Both the position numbers and the translations under genes were made by a program. From Multifurca ochricompacta (Eukaryota > Basidiomycota > Agaricomycetes > Russulales > Russulaceae), in NCBI GenBank assembly GCA_022496185.1, contig WTXG01000071.1, forward strand, positions 99,882 to 163,881: a stretch of 64,000 nucleotides of DNA, read 5' to 3'. Below, one piece after another: positions 545 to 61,903 of the stretch (position 1 is its first letter; the number at the start of each line of letters is the position of its first letter). A model generated the notes under the pieces. That model did no database searches. It saw only the letters and a list, made by a program, of their open reading frames with translations, and was not told where the DNA came from.

Positions 545-851
545 TGTTAGAATACAGCCACGGCACGCAGCCACATAGATACCAGAGATGGCGGCCCGAG
601 ATCGATCATATCAAGGCTGTCCTACACAATGCACGAGGTGTTGTGCAAATTTCTTTACTTTAATATAGGACTATTCGCATAGTTAGTGTCCTCAGTCTTT
701 CTGTTCCAAAGACTGAGGTCAGTATCATTCTCTTCGTAGCTACATTGTCTTTTACTAATTCTTTCTGTAGCTACTCGCTTTTCTAGGTATTACCTAGCAA
801 TATAGTCTTTCTGTTCCAAAGACTGAGCTACTCGCTTTTCTAGCTCTTACA
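545..851 (+). repeat. 5' LTR of element 1
   Basis: The LTR starts TGTTA and ends TTACA. A TATA-like AATATA lies near 662. Downstream is a repeated module: exon a (696-717), an intron-like GTCAGT..TAG segment (718-770) with a TACTAAT branch-like site, exon b (771-786), a spacer that starts GT and ends AG (787-805), then a and b again directly joined (806-843). Differences from the 3' LTR at 584, 613 and 618 all turn a CpG into TpG or CpA. Confidence 0.95.
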
Positions 852-867
852 GATTATGAGACCTGAG
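852..867 (+). promoter_or_regulatory. Primer binding site of element 1
   Basis: GATTATGAGACCTGAG follows the 5' LTR. It resembles the complement of the anticodon half of initiator tRNA-Met (GGTTATGAGCCCTG), with 12 of 14 positions alike. Priming from an internal half of this tRNA is known for Drosophila copia and yeast Ty5. The match is imperfect, so the assignment is likely but not certain. Confidence 0.6.
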
Positions 868-925: not shown

Positions 926-3900
926 ATGAGTTCCCCAATCAGCACAGCGGCACCCAAAGCGGCAGCAGCACTGTCTACAAAAGGAGCACGTCAATATGAC
1001 ATACCATACTTGGAAGAAGATGGTGGCAATTTCATGTTCTGGAAGTACAGAGTTCAAATGGTCTTGAAACTGCGGAGATTGTGGTCCATGGTTGATGGAT
1101 CAGAGCCTCAGCCAAATCCTACAGCACCTCCTGAAGCACAGGAGGAATGGGCATTCAAAGATAGCGAAGCGCAAGCACAGATATCGTTAACTCTCAAGGA
1201 CGAACCCCTAAGTACTGTCTTATATGCTAAGATGGCCAAGGAATGCTGGGATAAGTTATTAGTCCGCTACGAAGGCAAAGGAGAACAAAAGATAGTCTAC
1301 CTTATCAACGACGTCTTCCGCTCCACCCTCTCAGACACAGAATCCCTGGAGCCCCAGATAAATGCCATAGTCAGGGCTGCCCATACAATTTCCAACATTG
1401 GCTTACCACTGGATGACAAGCTCGTCGCCTTCGCAATCATTTCCTCACTCCCAACCTCTCTATCCACCTTAAAAACCATCCTTTCCACGACAAATCCCTC
1501 TTCCCTCACTGTTGAACACGTTAAATCACAGATAATCCTTGACGAACAGCGCTGCGTCCAAGAATTGGGCCTTGGCGCAACCGCTTACTTCACACGCTCA
1601 GCAAAAGCAGCTAAAAAAGGAAAAGGAAAGTCAGAAGAGGACAAGCCAAAGAAACGGTGTACTCACTGTAAAAAGCGTGGGCATGTGGTGGAAGAATGTT
1701 GGAAGCTCAAGAAGGAAAATGAAGCCAAAGCTAATGACTCAGGTGCCAATGCTCAGCAATCCTCCTCTAACGCTAAGGTCGCGGCAAAAGTCGCTTTAAT
1801 GGATAGCCAGCCCATCCAAAGCGAAGACCCCGTACTCCTGTTCAAAGTGCTACAAGTCCTATCAGCATGCGTCGACCTCAATCAGCAATGGATAATCGAT
1901 TCAGGGGCATCACATACCATGTGTTCCCATAGGAATTGGTTTTTCCAGTTTAAATCACTTTCAATCCCAGTCAAGATCGTCCTAGGCGATAACAGCTCAA
2001 TTCTTGGCACCGGCATCAGTAGTATCCACATCCGAATGAGGGCAAACAACAAGTGGACTAACACAATTCTCCAAGATGTCCTGTACATTCCCGAATTGCA
2101 TGGAAATCTACTGTCCGTTGCCCAACTTGCAAGCCGCGGAGCCGATGTCCGCTTTGCTAAGAACACCTGCCAAATCTATAGTCAGACTGGGGTATTTACC
2201 TGTGAGGGACGCCTCGAAGGAAACCTCTACATCATGGACACACGTACTGTCGCACCAGAGACAGTGCACATCGCCAGGGTGGACGCTTTCCCAGCTGAAG
2301 GAGACGAAATTAGCCCTAAAGATGAAACCGCATTAATCGCACTAAGCACAGTCGCAAAGGCAGACCTACATACCTGGCATCGAAGACTCGGGCACCTCAA
2401 TGCTGACGCCGTTCTCCGCATGGTTCAAAAGGGAATGGTCAAGGGAATGGACATTACCTCGGAGTCAAGTCCACCTGGCCCCTGCGAGTCATGCCTTAAG
2501 GGAAAGCAAACACGCGCTGAGATCCAGAAGTCCACGGAAACCAGAGCCACTGTAGTCTTAGGCTGAGTCTTCTCCGATGTGTGCGGAAAGCTACCACGGC
2601 GATCCCACCAAGGGTATGAATACTTTGTGACCTGGGTGGATGACAAGTCGCGGAAAGTCTTCGTAGCCAGCATGCGCGAAAAATCCAAGGTCGTGCGACA
2701 CTTAAAAACCTTCATTGCACGCGTGGAAGTCGAAACTGGGGGGAGAATCAAAGCCCTGTGTACAGATGGAGGGGGCAAGTACACTGCAACCACAGTCCAG
2801 AAGTTCCTGCAAGATAAAGGCATCAGACATGAGATGACGACACCTGACACTCCACAGCACAATGGCGTTGCTGAACGGATGAATCGAACACTCCTCGACA
2901 GGGTCCGAATGATGTTACTTGATGCTGATCTGCCTGAAACCTACTGGTACAACGTGCTAGAATATGCTGCTTACCTGCACAACGTCACCCCTACTCGCGC
3001 TCTAGATGACACCACCCCAGAAGAAGCTTGGAGCGGCAACAAACCAGATGTCTCTCGCCTGCGGATTTTTGGATGCCGAGCGTTCATGTATATTCCTGAG
3101 AGGTATCGCACCAAGCTGGGTGCACGATCCCTCCAATGCACTTTCCTCGGCTATGCGCGGCAGCGCAAGGCATTTAGATTGGTACATCACTCGACAGGCC
3201 GATTTTTTGAGTCCCGTGATGTCATATTCGATGAAGGGGGGCCGGGAAGTCGTCATGAACGAGTAATCATCGAAATTGACAACGCCGAACATGCAGAGCC
3301 AAGGGAGGAAGGCAAAAACAGTAACATTCAGCCGCATACAATAACTACGCCAACAAAAACTACTAGCCAACATCAGCCAAGTAGCGATAGCGAAGTCGAG
3401 AGTGCACTCACCGAACCCCCAGCACCAGAACCAATGCCCATCTCCACCATTACCACCCGACTCAAACGATCCACACGTCCTCCTGTCCGCGATGATGACC
3501 CTCGCTATTCTGTCAGTTCTTACGCAACTAGACGGGACCCTGCAGAACAAGTCAATATTGCGACATCTGACCTAGCAAGTGACCCACGCACCTACAAAGA
3601 AGCTATGGCGCGACCCAACGCCGGCAAGTGGGATGCAGCCTGCCAGGAAGAAATGCGATCATTCGAAAGCATGGGAGTCTACGAGGTTGTCACACGCCCA
3701 AATGGACGTAAAGTTGTTGGCAGTAAATGGGTGTTCCGTACGAAGCGTGGACCCACAGGGGAAGTCTTAAGGCACAAAGCTCGCATTGTGGCACAGGGTT
3801 TCACACAAGTCGAAGGCGTTGACTACGACGAGACTTTTGCGCCCGTTGTGAAGTTTGCATCTCTTCGCGCAATTCTTGCATTGGCAACGCAGTTTGATCT

Positions 3901-5125
3901 TGAAGTACACCAAATGGATGTGAAGTCGGCATATCTTAATGGTGAGCTCAAGGAAGAAATATATATGGAACCACCCCCGGGTTTCGACATCCCTGAGGGC
4001 ATGGTACTCTGACTAGTCAAGGTGGTATATGGCACTAAGCAAGGCGGCTGCGTATGGTACCAAGATATCAGAGCGAAGTTAGAAAGTATAGGATATCAAC
4101 GCACCGAGGCCGACCACGCCGTGTTCGTCCACCACAGAAACAATACCCCATCCATCATTGCCCTCTACGTTGACGATATCACCATGGTGTCTAAAACTCT
4201 GGAGGAAATAAATGAGGATAAGGAGGCACTCAAAAGGGTCTATGAAATGACAGACCTTGGTGAGCTTACCTGGATTCTTGGGATGCATGTCACTCGCGAC
4301 TGGAAAGCAGGTTGGATGGCACTCTCCCAGAAAAAATACATTGTAGAAATCTTGGCGCATTACGGAAAATCTGATGTTCGACCCATCAGCACCCCTGCTC
4401 TCGCGAATGAGCACTTAATCAAACTTGACTCACCCACTGTCGATGTCAAGGCGTACCAGCAAGCCATTGGCGCCTTGATGTATCCCATGCTCGGCACCCG
4501 CCCGGACCTCGCATACACAGTCACTGCACTCGGACGACATGCTGCGAATCCTGGAGAGGAACATAAGCGAGCCCTAGATCGCGCGTTCCGTTACCTTAGA
4601 GCCACAAGCGGCACGAAGCTAGTCTTCACACGCAGTGCACCTAGAGGAACTGAGCTGCAAGGTTATGTTGATGCCGATTGGGCTAGCGACGTGAACGATC
4701 GAAAATCAACTTCGGGCTTTGTCTTCATGCTAGCTGGAGGCGCGATAAGTTGGAGCTTGAAAAAGCAACCTTCAATTGCGCTATCGAGCACTGAGGCAGA
4801 GTATATTGCAGGAGCCCATGCCGCGAAGGAGGCCGTCTGGTTGCGTCGGCTACTAGCTGAAATCCACCAGAAGGATGACTTACCAACTACCCTTCACATG
4901 GACAACCAATCTGCGATATCAGTCACCCGAAACCCCGAATTCCATGATCGCACCAAACACATTGAGATCAGACACCACTTCTTGAGGCACATGCACGAAC
5001 ACCAAGAGATCAAATTGAAGTATGTACCAACAGAAGAACAACTTGCAGATGTGTTGACAAAGGGCCTTGTGCGGGAGAAACATGAGAAGTTCACTGAAGC
5101 GATGGGCATTCAGCGTGCAGGCTGA
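926..5125 (+). pseudogene. Copia gag-pol polyprotein, two in-frame stops
   Basis: One frame runs 926-5125 and is interrupted only by TGA at 2564 and 4010. Domains in order: gag with a CCHC knuckle (CTHCKKRGHVVEEC, residues 245-258); protease with WIIDSGAS (Asp at residue 325); GAG-pre-integrase with WHRRLGH and a CESC zinc site; integrase with TDGGGKY and QHNGVAERMNR; reverse transcriptase with HQMDVKSAYLNG and YVDDI; RNase H with DADWASD and STEAEYIA. Both TGA codons fall where relatives usually have Arg, so CGA-to-TGA changes are likely. All domains are otherwise present. The copy is probably inactive unless the stops are read through. The start at 926 is the first ATG with a copia gag-like N-terminus. 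Confidence 0.93.
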
Positions 5126-5132
5126 GGGGGCG

Positions 5133-5439
5133 TGTTAGAATACAGCCACGGCACGCAGCCACATAGATACCGGAGATGGCGGCCCGAGATCGATCATATC
5201 GAGGCCGTCCTACACAATGCACGAGGTGTTGTGCAAATTTCTTTACTTTAATATAGGACTATTCGCATAGTTAGTGTCCTCAGTCTTTCTGTTCCAAAGA
5301 CTGAGGTCAGTATCATTCTCTTCGTAGCTACATTGTCTTTTACTAATTCTTTCTGTAGCTACTCGCTTTTCTAGGTATTACCTAGCAATATAGTCTTTCT
5401 GTTCCAAAGACTGAGCTACTCGCTTTTCTAGCTCTTACA
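5133..5439 (+). repeat. 3' LTR of element 1
   Basis: This is the second 307-bp LTR, with 304 of 307 positions equal to the 5' copy. It starts seven bases after the gag-pol stop, behind a short purine-rich tract (GAGGGGGCG) that would serve as plus-strand primer. It carries the same a-intron-b-spacer-ab module. CAGTG follows at 5440-5444. Confidence 0.95.
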
Positions 5440-6388
5440 CAGTGGTAAGTGCTGCACTCGCCATGTCATGTACTGATGTGTTTTGTAGATCGCTTTGATC
5501 TTGCATCATGATCGAGGACTCGTTCTCTTGATCACCTAGTTCTTCTATCACGGCCCAAGACTCAATATCGTTGGTCTTCTCTGCGATTGCAGCAACAGTG
5601 TTCGCGCTATTGCCTTTCTTCTTTGGCCATTGTCCCTCCTTTCCTCCTCCTTTTGCCCAGCACTCCGCTTTAACATGCCCCTTCTTGTGGCAGTTAAAGC
5701 ACTCGACATCGCGCTTGCTCTTCTTTTTGTGCTGGCTACTGGCTGCAAATGCTTCATCTTGAGGCAATTTGTCTTTGCGGAGGAGCTTCTTTTCATAAGT
5801 GTTGATAGCGACCCTTTTGACAGCTGCAGGTGTCAAGGCCAAATTACTGGAGTCGTATGTGGTTGTGAGGGAATCGATGGCGGCATCGTAAGATGGTGGA
5901 AGGGAGCCTGTGAGGATGTCTACATATTCGTCCTCGCCAATAGTTCTCCCAACAGATGCGAGCTTCTCTCGCATGTCATCAAGGTTGTCAAGGTGGGCAT
6001 GTACATTATCATCCTCCCCACACTTCAAGTTTCTAAACTTCCTTCCCAGATTGACCATCAAACTACTTGATCACTTCTCGAACAAGTTCTTCAGTGAGTC
6101 CCAAACGTCCTTTGCTGTGGTCTTGTCTTTGATCTGGTTGAAGATTGTGTCAGGTACAGATACGCCAATAAGCTCTTTCACTGAAGCTTCATGCATTGCC
6201 CATCGTTCATTGGGGGAACATCCTCCAACTGTGCCGGCATTGGTGTAAGTGGCTGTTATTGTGGCACTTGTGATGATTTCGGATAGCCCCTTCACATTGA
6301 AAGTCCACTTCATGCGGTCCCAGTAAGTGATCCAGTTGGATCCATCTGCAGCTAACTTGGTCAGGATGATCTTCATGTCGTCTCCCAT
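5435..6388 (-). pseudogene. Copia element A gag, one in-frame stop
   Basis: Minus-strand gag begins at 6388. It has the DUF4219/UBN2-like start (residues near GSNWITYWDRMKW), a central helical region, and a CCHC knuckle (CFNCHKKGHVKAEC) near its end. A TGA at 6071-6073 interrupts one frame at a position where copia gags usually have Arg (LFEKRS), suggesting another CGA-to-TGA change. The frame is then cut at 5444 by the insertion of element 1 and resumes at about 539 on the far side. Confidence 0.88.
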
Positions 6389-9610: not shown

Positions 9611-10660
9611 ATGGTCCTCACTAAACGTATTGCCTCTCTACATTGCTGCGTAGCCCTTCGGATCTCAATTCCAATAGTTGAGGTCAAGAATGAGACCGAT
9701 AATGGTAGAAGGGATACTTTAGATGGGTCCGGGGCCAATTTTCACGACGAACGGATCGCGGAGTATGTAAATGGAAGCGAGTCCAAGAGCTTGGAAATAA
9801 AGGGTGTTGAGACGAGCCGGACTCCCGGGTGGACCCGATCTAACGATCGTGATAAGATAAGCTAAAGTGCGTCCATTAACTGATTGAGATACAATTCCAC
9901 ATTGCACGCACAACACATTCCTTCTTATATCTTGTCATGAACTATTTACTGTTATGATTGTCACACCTTTATGTAGTATAAAAGGTTGTTATATTGTATG
10001 CATTCACTTCAGTTTTGACCACAACAACTGAAGTGAGTATCAGTATCTTATCTTTACTGTAGTTAGCTAACGCTTAGTAATAGCCTATCCGCTATCTACA
10101 TAGGTAATGATACTAATTAATATATAAGTTTTGACCACAACAACTGAACCTATCCGCTATCTACATAGATAGCTAAACCCTTTCACAGCTGCGTTTCGTC
10201 AAAGGGCATGTCCAAATTCTCTGAATCGTAGGCCCCCGAGTCCAGGACGTCCTGCCATGCCTTTGTCAGGCGCTGGACGTGAGCGGGGACATCCCCGTCA
10301 GAATAAGATTATTAGATCAGAATTTCGAATTGTTGTCCATATTTCTTTGGCCGTTGTGGACTGTCCGATTATATATAGAAAGTCGTCTGGGATGTTCGCC
10401 ACGAGTTGAAGCCGCGCACACGCGTCTCGCATTTTCCAGCGCCTTCGCTCAGACTCTTCCGTCGGAGCTACTTCTGTACCATCGACGAGACCCCACAGGC
10501 CGCGAGACTGGAGTATGAGCTTAGTCCTGCATGACCAAATCGAATAGTTGCCCATTTCGAGCTTCGATTGGATTGTAATGGGGTCGAGTTGCCAACTCTC
10601 TAAGCCATAAGCGTTAAACATGCTGGGTGCCATAGGGGTTTTCGCGCGGTGTGTGACCAC
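9610..10660 (-). pseudogene. Decayed copia gag, split by a solo LTR
   Basis: The minus strand carries a copia gag N-terminus (10298-10660: residues like LESWQLDPITIQSKLEMGNY, then GLWGLVDGTE and ERRRWKMRDACARLQL). Its continuation at 10195-10300 and 9610-9880 aligns base by base with the second gag relic at 14830-15530. The solo LTR at 9881-10195 sits inside it. Many stops and indels are present. An LTR of the same element may be 10696-11046. Confidence 0.75.
9881..10195 (+). repeat. Solo copia LTR with splice-copy module
   Basis: TGATT...TTTCA, 315 bp. TATAAAAG at 9977 is followed 36 nt later by exon a (10013-10032). Next come an intron-like GTGAGT..AATAG segment (10033-10083, with GCTAAC branch-like site), exon b (10084-10103), a spacer starting GT and ending AG (10104-10128), then a and b joined (10129-10168). 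Both copies are identical (20/20 and 20/20). It interrupts a gag relic. A clear target duplication was not seen, so the ends may be off by a few bases. Confidence 0.8.
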
Positions 10661-53752: not shown

Positions 53753-54255
53753 GGACGTGTCTGGAGATGCTTCAGGCATCTGAGGATCGCTTCAGCTGTA
53801 GATTAGATCAGATTAGATTTCGGAGTATCGGACTTTTTATGTTATCTTTATTACATTTCTTTCTCACCTTACTCAGCTGATTAGTGATGGACTTAGTAAT
53901 GTGCAGTAAGCATGTGATATCTCATTAGCCAATGGCCTTTATCCCTCTCTGTTTATTGTCCAGCACTTGTGGACTTATTCCCAGTGCGCACAGACCATTT
54001 CCCCTGGCCCCTATGGGTATATAAGGGTGTCTGTTTTGTCCCTTTCACTTCAGAGTTCTTCTAACCTCTGAAGTGTAAGTTCTTTCTTTACTATACTGTC
54101 TTTTCCTTTAGACTAACGCTTCATATAGTACTTGTCTTTTCTAGGTCAGTAGTGTAGTAATATAGAGTTCTTCTAACCTCTGAAGTTACTTGTCTTTTCT
54201 AGCCTAACCCGCTACTAACCACAGTCAGTATAACCAGCAGCATGATTGTTTGACA
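53753..54255 (+). repeat. 5' LTR of copia element C
   Basis: 503 bp, TGTTGACA..TTTGACA. TATATAAG at 54018 lies 36 nt before exon a (54054-54074). Then come a GTAAGT..ATAG intron-like segment (54075-54128, branch-like GACTAAC), exon b (54129-54144), a spacer starting GT and ending AG (54145-54165), and a plus b joined (54166-54202). Both copies match perfectly (21/21 and 16/16). Confidence 0.92.
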
Positions 54256-55332: not shown

Positions 55333-55837
55333 TGTTGAACACAGGAGATGTTCGGTGATGCTTCAGGCATCAGGTGATTAGATTAGCTACTTAGTAGATT
55401 AGATTAGATACCGGAGTTTCGGACTATTTACATTATCATTATTACTTTCTTTCTCACATTCTGCAGTAGCTGACTGATACACCATGTAACATGTGATTCC
55501 TGTAGTGGCCAATGGCCTTTCTCCCTCTGTTTGTTGTTTGGACTTTGTCCGGCACTTGTGGACTTATTCCCAGTGCACAGACCATCCCTTGGAAATGTAT
55601 ATAAGGGTGTCTGTTTTGTCTCTTACACTTCAGAGTTTCTTCTACCTCTGAAGTGTAAGTCGTCCTCTCTACTATCATCACTACCTTAAGACTAACTCTG
55701 TATATAGAACTTGTCTTTGTCTAGGTGTGTAGTATAGTATAATAGAGTTTCTTCTACCTCTGAAGTAACTTGTCTTTGTCTAGCCTAAACCGCTAACTTT
55801 CCACAGTCAGTATGCTGCGCCTCATGCCTGTTCAACA
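55333..55837 (+). repeat. 5' LTR of element B
   Basis: TATATAAG at 55598, then 36 nt to exon a (55634-55654), a GTAAGT..ATAG intron-like segment (55655-55707, branch-like GACTAACT), exon b (55708-55724), a spacer starting GT and ending AG (55725-55745), and a plus b joined (55746-55783). Copies are identical (21/21 and 17/17). Confidence 0.94.
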
Positions 55838-61400: not shown

Positions 61401-61903
61401 TGTTGAACACAGGAGATGTTCGGTGATGCTTCAGGCATCAGGTGATTAGATTAGCTACTTAGTAGATTAGATTAGATACCGGAGTTTCGGACTATTTACA
61501 TTATCATTATTACTTTCTTTCTCACATTCCGCAGTAGCTGACTGATACACCATGTAACATGTGATTCCTGTAGTGGCCAATGGCCTTTCTCCCTCTGTTT
61601 GTTGTTTGGACTTTGTCCGCACTTGTGGACTTATTCCCAGTGCACAGACCATCCCTTGGAAATGTATATAAGGGTGTCTGTTTTGTCTCTTACACTTCAG
61701 AGTTTCTTCTACCTCTGAAGTGTAAGTCGTCCTCTCTACTATCATCACTACCTTAAGACTAACTCTGTATATAGAACTTGTCTTTGTCTAGGTGTGTAGT
61801 ATAGTTAATAGAGTTTCTTCTACCTCTGAAGTAACTTGTCTTTGTCTAGCCTAAACCGCTAACTTTCCACAGTCAGTATGCTGCGCCTCATGCCTGTTCA
61901 ACA
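61401..61903 (+). repeat. 3' LTR of element B
   Basis: 503 bp. Against the 5' LTR it has C for T at a CpG (CATTCCGC), one G fewer (GTCCGCAC) and one A fewer (TAGTTAATAG in the spacer). Exon a starts at 61701, and the a-intron-b-spacer-ab module is kept. ACCCT follows at 61904-61908. Confidence 0.94.

Follow-up and report, generated by a model that had tools for sequence, protein, structure and literature searches.

When RNA is copied into DNA, introns are expected to be lost, and the R region of a long terminal repeat (LTR) is expected to be set by the transcription start site (TSS) and the poly(A) site alone. The LTRs of element 1, a retroelement in a 64,000-nt stretch of the Multifurca ochricompacta genome (contig WTXG01000071.1, hereafter the window), raise the question of how a leader interrupted by an intron-like sequence can stand next to a copy of the same leader from which this sequence is precisely missing. 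A preliminary description had reported that two segments, a (696–717) and b (771–786), which lie on either side of the intron-like sequence, recur in joined form at 806–843, and this is exact, letter for letter. The edges of the unit needed correction. The identity stands, whereas the start does not: the copied unit begins at 694 and 804 rather than at 696 and 806, and the AG that had been read as the 3′ end of the spacer already belongs to the copied unit, which it opens (694–695 and 804–805).

Structure of element 1 and its neighbors

Searches with three individual pieces of element 1 detected the domains Retrotran_gag_2, gag_pre-integrs, rve and RVT_2 in the order gag, integrase, RVT_2 that is characteristic of Ty1/copia elements, and paired TG..CA LTRs with a 5-bp target site duplication (TSD) point to the same group. 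The layout is present in both LTRs of element 1 and at further sites in the window that belong to two other LTR groups, F2 and F3 (Table 1); the layout finder returned no second F3 unit within the 64 kb. We take the sequences following the LTRs to be putative complements of the anticodon regions of Met-tRNAs, namely of the elongator for element 1 (group F1) and of the initiator for the F2 element (at ~55.84 kb), which would point to half-tRNA priming in both. ARAGORN and Rfam found neither tRNA genes nor Rfam families in the window. The F2 element at 55.3–61.9 kb is a second copia element with the TSD ACCCT, as read by eye, and the spacer before a′ is not the same in its 5′ and 3′ LTRs (GTATAAT versus GTTAAT). 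On the minus strand beside element 1 (5435–6070), an open frame that includes a zinc-knuckle-like stretch probably represents what is left of a different copia gag.

Table 1. Features of element 1 and further occurrences of the layout in the window
Feature	Position	Strand	Remarks
TSD CAGTG, element 1	540–544 and 5440–5444		Flanks the LTR pair
5′ LTR, element 1	545..851	+	TGTTAG...TTACA; 304/307 identical with 5133–5439 (3 differences)
TATA-like motif TAATATAGG	661..669	+	33 nt 5′ of A694
a, predicted 5′ exon	694..717	+	Begins at predicted TSS A694; CTGAG end precedes the 5′ splice site
Predicted intron 1, 53 nt	718..770	+	GTCAGT...TACTAAT...CTGTAG
b, predicted 16-nt micro-exon	771..786	+	Ends TTCTAG, followed by GT
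Spacer, upstream portion of predicted intron 2	787..803	+	Begins GTATTA
a′, exact copy of a	804..827	+	Start of R; predicted branch point for intron 2
b′, exact copy of b	828..843	+	Pyrimidine-rich; TAG 841–843 is the acceptor of predicted intron 2 (787–843)
U5 (CTCTTACA)	844..851	+	Follows b′; end set by TSD and LTR pair
Probable primer-binding site GATTATGAGACCTGAG	852..867	+	Directly 3′ of the LTR
copia-type gag-pol	926..5125	+	In-frame TGA interruptions at 2564–2566 and 4010–4012
3′ LTR, element 1	5133..5439	+	Paired with the 5′ LTR, layout repeated
3′ LTR, a, intron 1 and b	5282–5305, 5306–5358, 5359–5374		
3′ LTR, spacer, a′ and b′	5375–5391, 5392–5415, 5416–5431		
F3 unit with layout	10011..10168	+	a 10011–10032, intron 10033–10083, b 10084–10103, spacer 10104–10126, a′b′ 10127–10168
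F2 unit with layout	54052..54202	+	Layout finder
Layout in 5′ LTR of F2 element	55632..55783	+	Followed by putative primer-binding site GGTTATGGGCCC
Layout in 3′ LTR of F2 element (55.3–61.9 kb)	61699..61849	+	Layout finder

Occurrence of the layout beyond chance

A finder that requires GT and AG at the ends of the intron returned six units in the window and none on the reversed sequence, and a similar finder returned six units with GT/AG and none with any of five alternative dinucleotide pairs. In the units outside element 1, a ends at positions 10032, 54074, 55654, and 61721. Across 107 regions (250 kb) of the genome, 114 hits were obtained versus two on the reversed sequence, both of which came from loci apparently containing tandem arrays (L089 and L115). 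Among the 114 hits, one antisense hit was judged spurious (L077) and one place had been counted twice (L101/L033). When no dinucleotides were specified at all, 120 units were found, 12 of them from the two tandem-array loci, and GT..AG was among the equally best placements for 104 of the remaining 108 (the exceptions are L044, L045, L125, and L127). The GT..AG ends are therefore not imposed by the finder, and a chance repeat is ruled out by the reversed-sequence, other-dinucleotide and dinucleotide-free controls taken together.

The layout is not a peculiarity of the window. All LTRs analyzed stem from a single genome of 53,808,675 bases. An RVT_2 search, in which 150 of 1159 candidates were scored, provided 48 best-scoring Copia reverse transcriptase (RT) loci for examination, and a finder for the order a, GT..AG, b, spacer, ab recognized the layout at 45 of these, with one hit on reversed sequence over 70 regions. 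Outside these 45, L102 has the layout apart from a single mismatch at the 3′ end of a′, L109 carries a collapsed LTR (see below), and no layout was seen at L061/L087. The LTRs fall into three groups between which a and b are unrelated: in F1, which includes element 1, a reads AGTCTTTCTGTTCCAAAGACTGAG; in F2 it begins with AGAGTT and ends with CTCTGAAGT; in F3, represented by eight mostly closely related LTRs, it runs from AGTT to AACTGAA. A pattern comprising the start, a and the donor of F2 occurs at 1424 places genome-wide and the a segment of F1 at 273 places with up to three mismatches, compared to none for either when read backwards. In a protein collection, at least 4548 RT relatives (the best at 72%) were present among 7993 candidates listed, seen there without LTR context; among 120 of these relatives that were listed, those with a named source come from Bondarzewia mesenterica and Hericium alpestre, which both belong to the Russulales. 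The viral_contigs collection contained no match to the RT protein or to the F2 LTR pattern.

Two sets of LTRs were used for the counts that follow. The 110-LTR set is counted by place and consists of the 114 hits minus L077, the L101/L033 duplicate, and L124 and L127, which are real LTRs but were unreadable for the parser, as b lacks its final AG in the former and a is changed at +2 in the latter. For the 93-LTR set (37 F1, 48 F2, 8 F3), rows sharing a 140-nt stretch were removed.

Splice signals

The sequence between a and b resembles a spliceosomal intron in its GT..AG ends, in a branch motif near its 3′ end and in its length of 48–57 nt across the groups, which is the usual length of fungal introns. 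A YTRAY motif is located 10–17 nt from the 3′ end in 37/37 F1, 45/48 F2, and 8/8 F3 LTRs, as tabulated by motif class. Among 40 aligned LTRs, 14 of the 53 columns of intron 1 are variable, the donor GTCAGT is invariant, and TACTAAT deviates in one row at position 753 and in one at 754. In 114 of 115 LTRs, the exception being L124, b ends with AG and is followed by GT; the parser demanded this for 110 of them, and four more were read by eye.

In line with the proposal that the spacer and the copy could be spliced out in turn, splice signals for both proposed introns are present in all three groups. In the 93 LTRs, the predicted intron 2 (spacer, a′ and b′) is 55–65 nt long, starts with GT and in nearly all cases ends with AG. 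The motif CTGA occurs near the end of a in all 110 LTRs; in a′ it is situated 15–21 nt before the end of b′, and it is this position that makes the whole unit resemble a second intron. With CTGAA or CTGAG, intron 2 has a weaker branch site than intron 1 with CTAAC, CTAAT, or CTGAT. The R region thus looks as if it doubled as the 3′ half of the predicted intron 2.

A single long intron spanning everything between the 3′ edge of a and that of a′ would directly give a–b′–U5, and in F1 a′ does end with GAG and could offer an acceptor. We nevertheless regard this as extremely unlikely and reject it on the basis of F2 and F3, where the required terminal AG is absent, a ending with AAGT or AAGC in F2 and with GAA in F3; furthermore, b′ would then descend from b′, contrary to the matched versions of b described below.

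Edges of the copied unit and the predicted transcription start

With +1 set at the A of AGTC, AGAG, or AGTT, the copy begins 33–35 nt 3′ of a TATA-like motif in 88 of the 93 LTRs (F1 32/37, F2 48/48, F3 8/8), the set of motifs having been chosen from these same sequences and having no member in five F1 LTRs. The 11 F1 LTRs with a distance of 35 nt match TATA poorly. Upstream of a, CACTTC (F2, F3) or CCTC (F1) is invariant in the 93 LTRs, whereas other bases precede a′. In F2, the bases upstream of a and a′ agree at positions −1 to −4 in 16, 5, 33, and 0 of 48 LTRs, respectively, which is low or chance-like and uneven between positions. Such an edge of identity at the start of a matches what a 5′ RNA end predicts. 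At the other side, the bases that follow b and b′ agree at the first and second position in 2 and 4 of 48 F2 LTRs and in 0 and 37 of 37 F1 LTRs, respectively. The edge is less sharp in F3, because there the first three bases after b and b′ agree as well, in 7–8 of 8 LTRs.

The base directly before a is C in all 48 F2 LTRs, as opposed to T in 25, C in 16, A in 4, and G in 3 before a′, where it varies even between elements with otherwise equal spacers. Reverse transcriptases can add a stray base at an end, and variability of this kind would be expected at a strand-transfer junction if strong-stop cDNA gains such a base. The C found before a′ in 16 of the 48 LTRs may also indicate that some transcripts start one base further upstream.

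In element 1, the predicted start lies within an inverted repeat (691–717, CTCAGTCTTT/AAAGACTGAG). Shorter ones are seen in F2 (TTCAGAG/CTCTGAA) and F3 (TTCAGTT/AACTGAA), and in a relative at C1:587833 both arms are changed as a pair (CTCGG/CCGAG). The inverted repeat is possibly a conserved hairpin.

Matched variation of the copies

The preliminary description had suggested looking for independent drift of a and its copy in other LTRs, and the idea that the one is made from the other survived this test, given that a equals a′ in 108 of 110 LTRs (F1 53/54, F2 47/48, F3 8/8). For b and b′, identity amounts to 85 of 110 (F1 32/54, F2 46/48, F3 7/8) and rises to 105 of 110 (F1 52/54) when CpG decay is set aside by treating CG, TG, and CA alike, a lenient masking that is applied to every TG and CA. 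Differences beyond CpG occur in L032, L035, L085, L097, and L106; in the first two, which are the F1 exceptions, b′ also ends with TAA instead of TAG at the acceptor of intron 2, and their b′ changes are included in the 110-LTR set and missing from the 93-LTR set. After addition of the left-out real LTRs L044, L045, L102, L124, and L127, a equals a′ in 109 of 115 LTRs and differs from it in L044, L045, L089, L102, L127, and L136.

Among the 48 F2 LTRs, a occurs in 16 versions and b in 22, and each LTR carries its own version twice. Shuffled pairing gave a mean of 5.6 (maximum 14) matches for a and of 5.2 (maximum 13) for b. Among F2 pairs that differ in a, 1012 of 1013 differ in a′ too (93-LTR set). 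On a tree calculated from the U3 tail and intron 1 only (93-LTR set), a changes 20 times in F2, a′ 21 times, and b and b′ 22 times each, these being total counts that are not matched branch by branch. The layout finder is biased toward matching copies, a bias that is absent from an alignment of 40 F1 LTRs made by homology; in it, a′ is invariant and a varies in two columns (rows L044 and L045), while U3 is variable in 93 of 151 columns.

It is hardly credible that the copies are ordinary promoter repeats under selection with which splicing has nothing to do. A binding site could be marked by a, which is partly palindromic in all three groups, but the join matches splicing in each of the three, and a and b differ between elements and yet vary jointly inside each LTR.

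A proposed replication cycle with a spliced leader

We consider it highly probable that this Ty1/copia LTR is rebuilt in every round from its spliced 5′ leader. In the cycle proposed here, for which we infer the transcription start, both splicing events, the poly(A) site and the transfer onto a′, transcription would start at A694, within the functional U3, and yield a nascent RNA with the order a–intron 1–b–(spacer–a′–b′)–U5. The spliceosome would then take out intron 1 as well as intron 2, with a′ providing the branch point and b′ the acceptor for the latter, such that the mature 5′ end would read a–b–U5–primer-binding site and minus-strand strong-stop cDNA would be a copy of U5–b–a. The 3′ end of the template RNA would retain U3–a–intron 1–b–spacer, extend into a′ and be polyadenylated before intron 2 is complete. 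Pairing of the a end of the strong-stop cDNA with a′, followed by extension, would join U3–a–intron 1–b–spacer to a–b–U5 and thus restore the original LTR. In consequence, a′ and b′ would be rewritten from a and b in each generation, the introns would outlast reverse transcription, and R would be made by splicing.

The matched copies and the splice signals lend strong support to the cycle of rebuilding contained in the preliminary description, with one amendment: the 3′ RNA end, originally placed in the spacer, must enter a′, because the a–b–U5 cDNA has no homology in the spacer. Intron 1 appears equally spliceable in the 3′ and the 5′ LTR, and the model therefore has to postulate a difference between the two ends. 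We are also fairly confident that this copia lineage needs the host spliceosome, in that double splicing restricted to the 5′ end would create R, the terminal redundancy on which first-strand transfer depends, and allow the introns to persist indefinitely. R would then serve as leader, as transfer site and as branch point and acceptor of an intron all at the same time. In L089, a contains CAACC and a′ CAATC, and the related L115 contains CAATC in a as well as in a′; the parent of L089 may have had unlike LTRs, which would match the lag of one generation that the cycle predicts.

If the strong-stop a–b–U5 paired with the first a instead of a′, a collapsed LTR of the form U3–a–b–U5 would result. 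Such LTRs were found at 37 places in F2, 17 of which were read and all proved to have this form, with several subfamilies represented, and outside F2 in L135 (F1) and L109 (F3). We do not accept them as proof of splicing, since a deletion between a and a′ yields the identical product. Two collapsed LTRs, L143 and L144, share a version of a that is unique to them among the 37 and lie 13.5 kb apart on the same strand, and one of them adjoins a putative primer-binding site downstream. The pair may belong to a single interrupted element, in which case the collapse would date to reverse transcription.

Other by-products are scarce. The combination intron 1–b–spacer is present at 869 places, and intron 1–b–U5 is rare, with one place in F2 and L134 in F1. 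In F2, collapse between b and b′ is rarer than collapse between a and a′ (1/870 versus 37/1461, Fisher p 5.5e-7), as counted with patterns that differ on their right side, the one for b requiring a U5 that starts with CCT. Forms with a–b–spacer were found neither in F2, where a slightly stricter pattern gave 0 hits, nor in F1, where all 34 hits of one a–b pattern search turned out to be a′b′–U5 and a second search gave 0 hits.

The last result bears on the idea that intron 1 alone is spliced, that the strong-stop cDNA consists of a–b–spacer–a′–b′–U5, and that template jumping then removes the additional copy. Intron 1 does have the stronger branch motif; full transfer, however, predicts a–b–spacer LTRs, which were not found with the patterns used, and the GT after b together with the CTGA and TAG of the copy is kept in nearly all LTRs. 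We judge this idea to be very unlikely. It is likewise improbable, though a little less so, that a spliced copy arose just once by reverse transcription and that gene conversion at the DNA level or template switching between the direct repeats has since maintained their likeness, with no splicing in each round. The repeats are about 110 bp apart, and the collapsed LTRs testify to exchange or deletion between a and a′. On the other hand, two separate tracts of 14–24 nt both stay identical through many versions, length changes included, the tracts have edges at the predicted TSS as well as, for F1 and F2, at the boundary between b and GT, and collapse between b and b′ is the rarer event in F2 and was encountered once among the F1 cases read (L134). 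The cycle with two spliced introns remains our preferred reading.

Significance and comparison with known systems

The literature that we searched, consisting of titles and abstract openings and with all bioRxiv preprints and most subscription journals outside its scope, contained no description of this layout. Two papers with similar designations, on a vector called LTR1 (PMC5542766) and a bacterial gene called ltrB (PMC4256276), proved to be unrelated. The sequences of about 100 LTRs indicate that R arises by splicing and that RNA has transmitted the introns over many generations. If this is true, a retroelement would use splicing as one of the steps of its replication, the 5′ copy of its 3′-end signals would be hidden by being spliced out, which might be a gain for the element, and the genome would keep legible traces of spliced leaders, of transcription starts, and of strand-transfer junctions.

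In HTLV, spumaviruses, and HIV, a splice donor is located in R or in the leader, splicing leads to subgenomic mRNAs, and unspliced RNA serves as the genome. The elements described here are like these retroviruses in that splicing would begin in an LTR-derived leader and unlike them in that, according to our prediction, the replicated RNA itself has a spliced 5′ leader. With Penelope-like elements they would share introns that are kept through retrotransposition; those, however, are a different class of retroelement with different priming and are not known to carry a spliced copy next to the intron-bearing original. Rearrangement of splice signals by reverse transcription is also known from engineered split-intron retroviral vectors, which are artificial and are not known to possess a self-renewing spliced copy. 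The closest relationship is with Ty1/copia elements such as Drosophila copia, with which integrase before RT, TG..CA LTRs, and a 5-bp TSD are shared and, presumably, priming by a Met-tRNA fragment, which we consider probable here. In the known copia elements, R is a plain stretch from the TSS to the poly(A) site. Here, in contrast, R appears as the spliced version of a leader carried by U3, and the LTR holds two predicted introns; the TSS predicted at A694 and the predicted intron signals at 718–770 and 787–843 are at variance with a collinear U3–R–U5 plan. The elements are copia by membership, and their LTR, judging from its sequence, departs from the plain U3–R–U5 plan.
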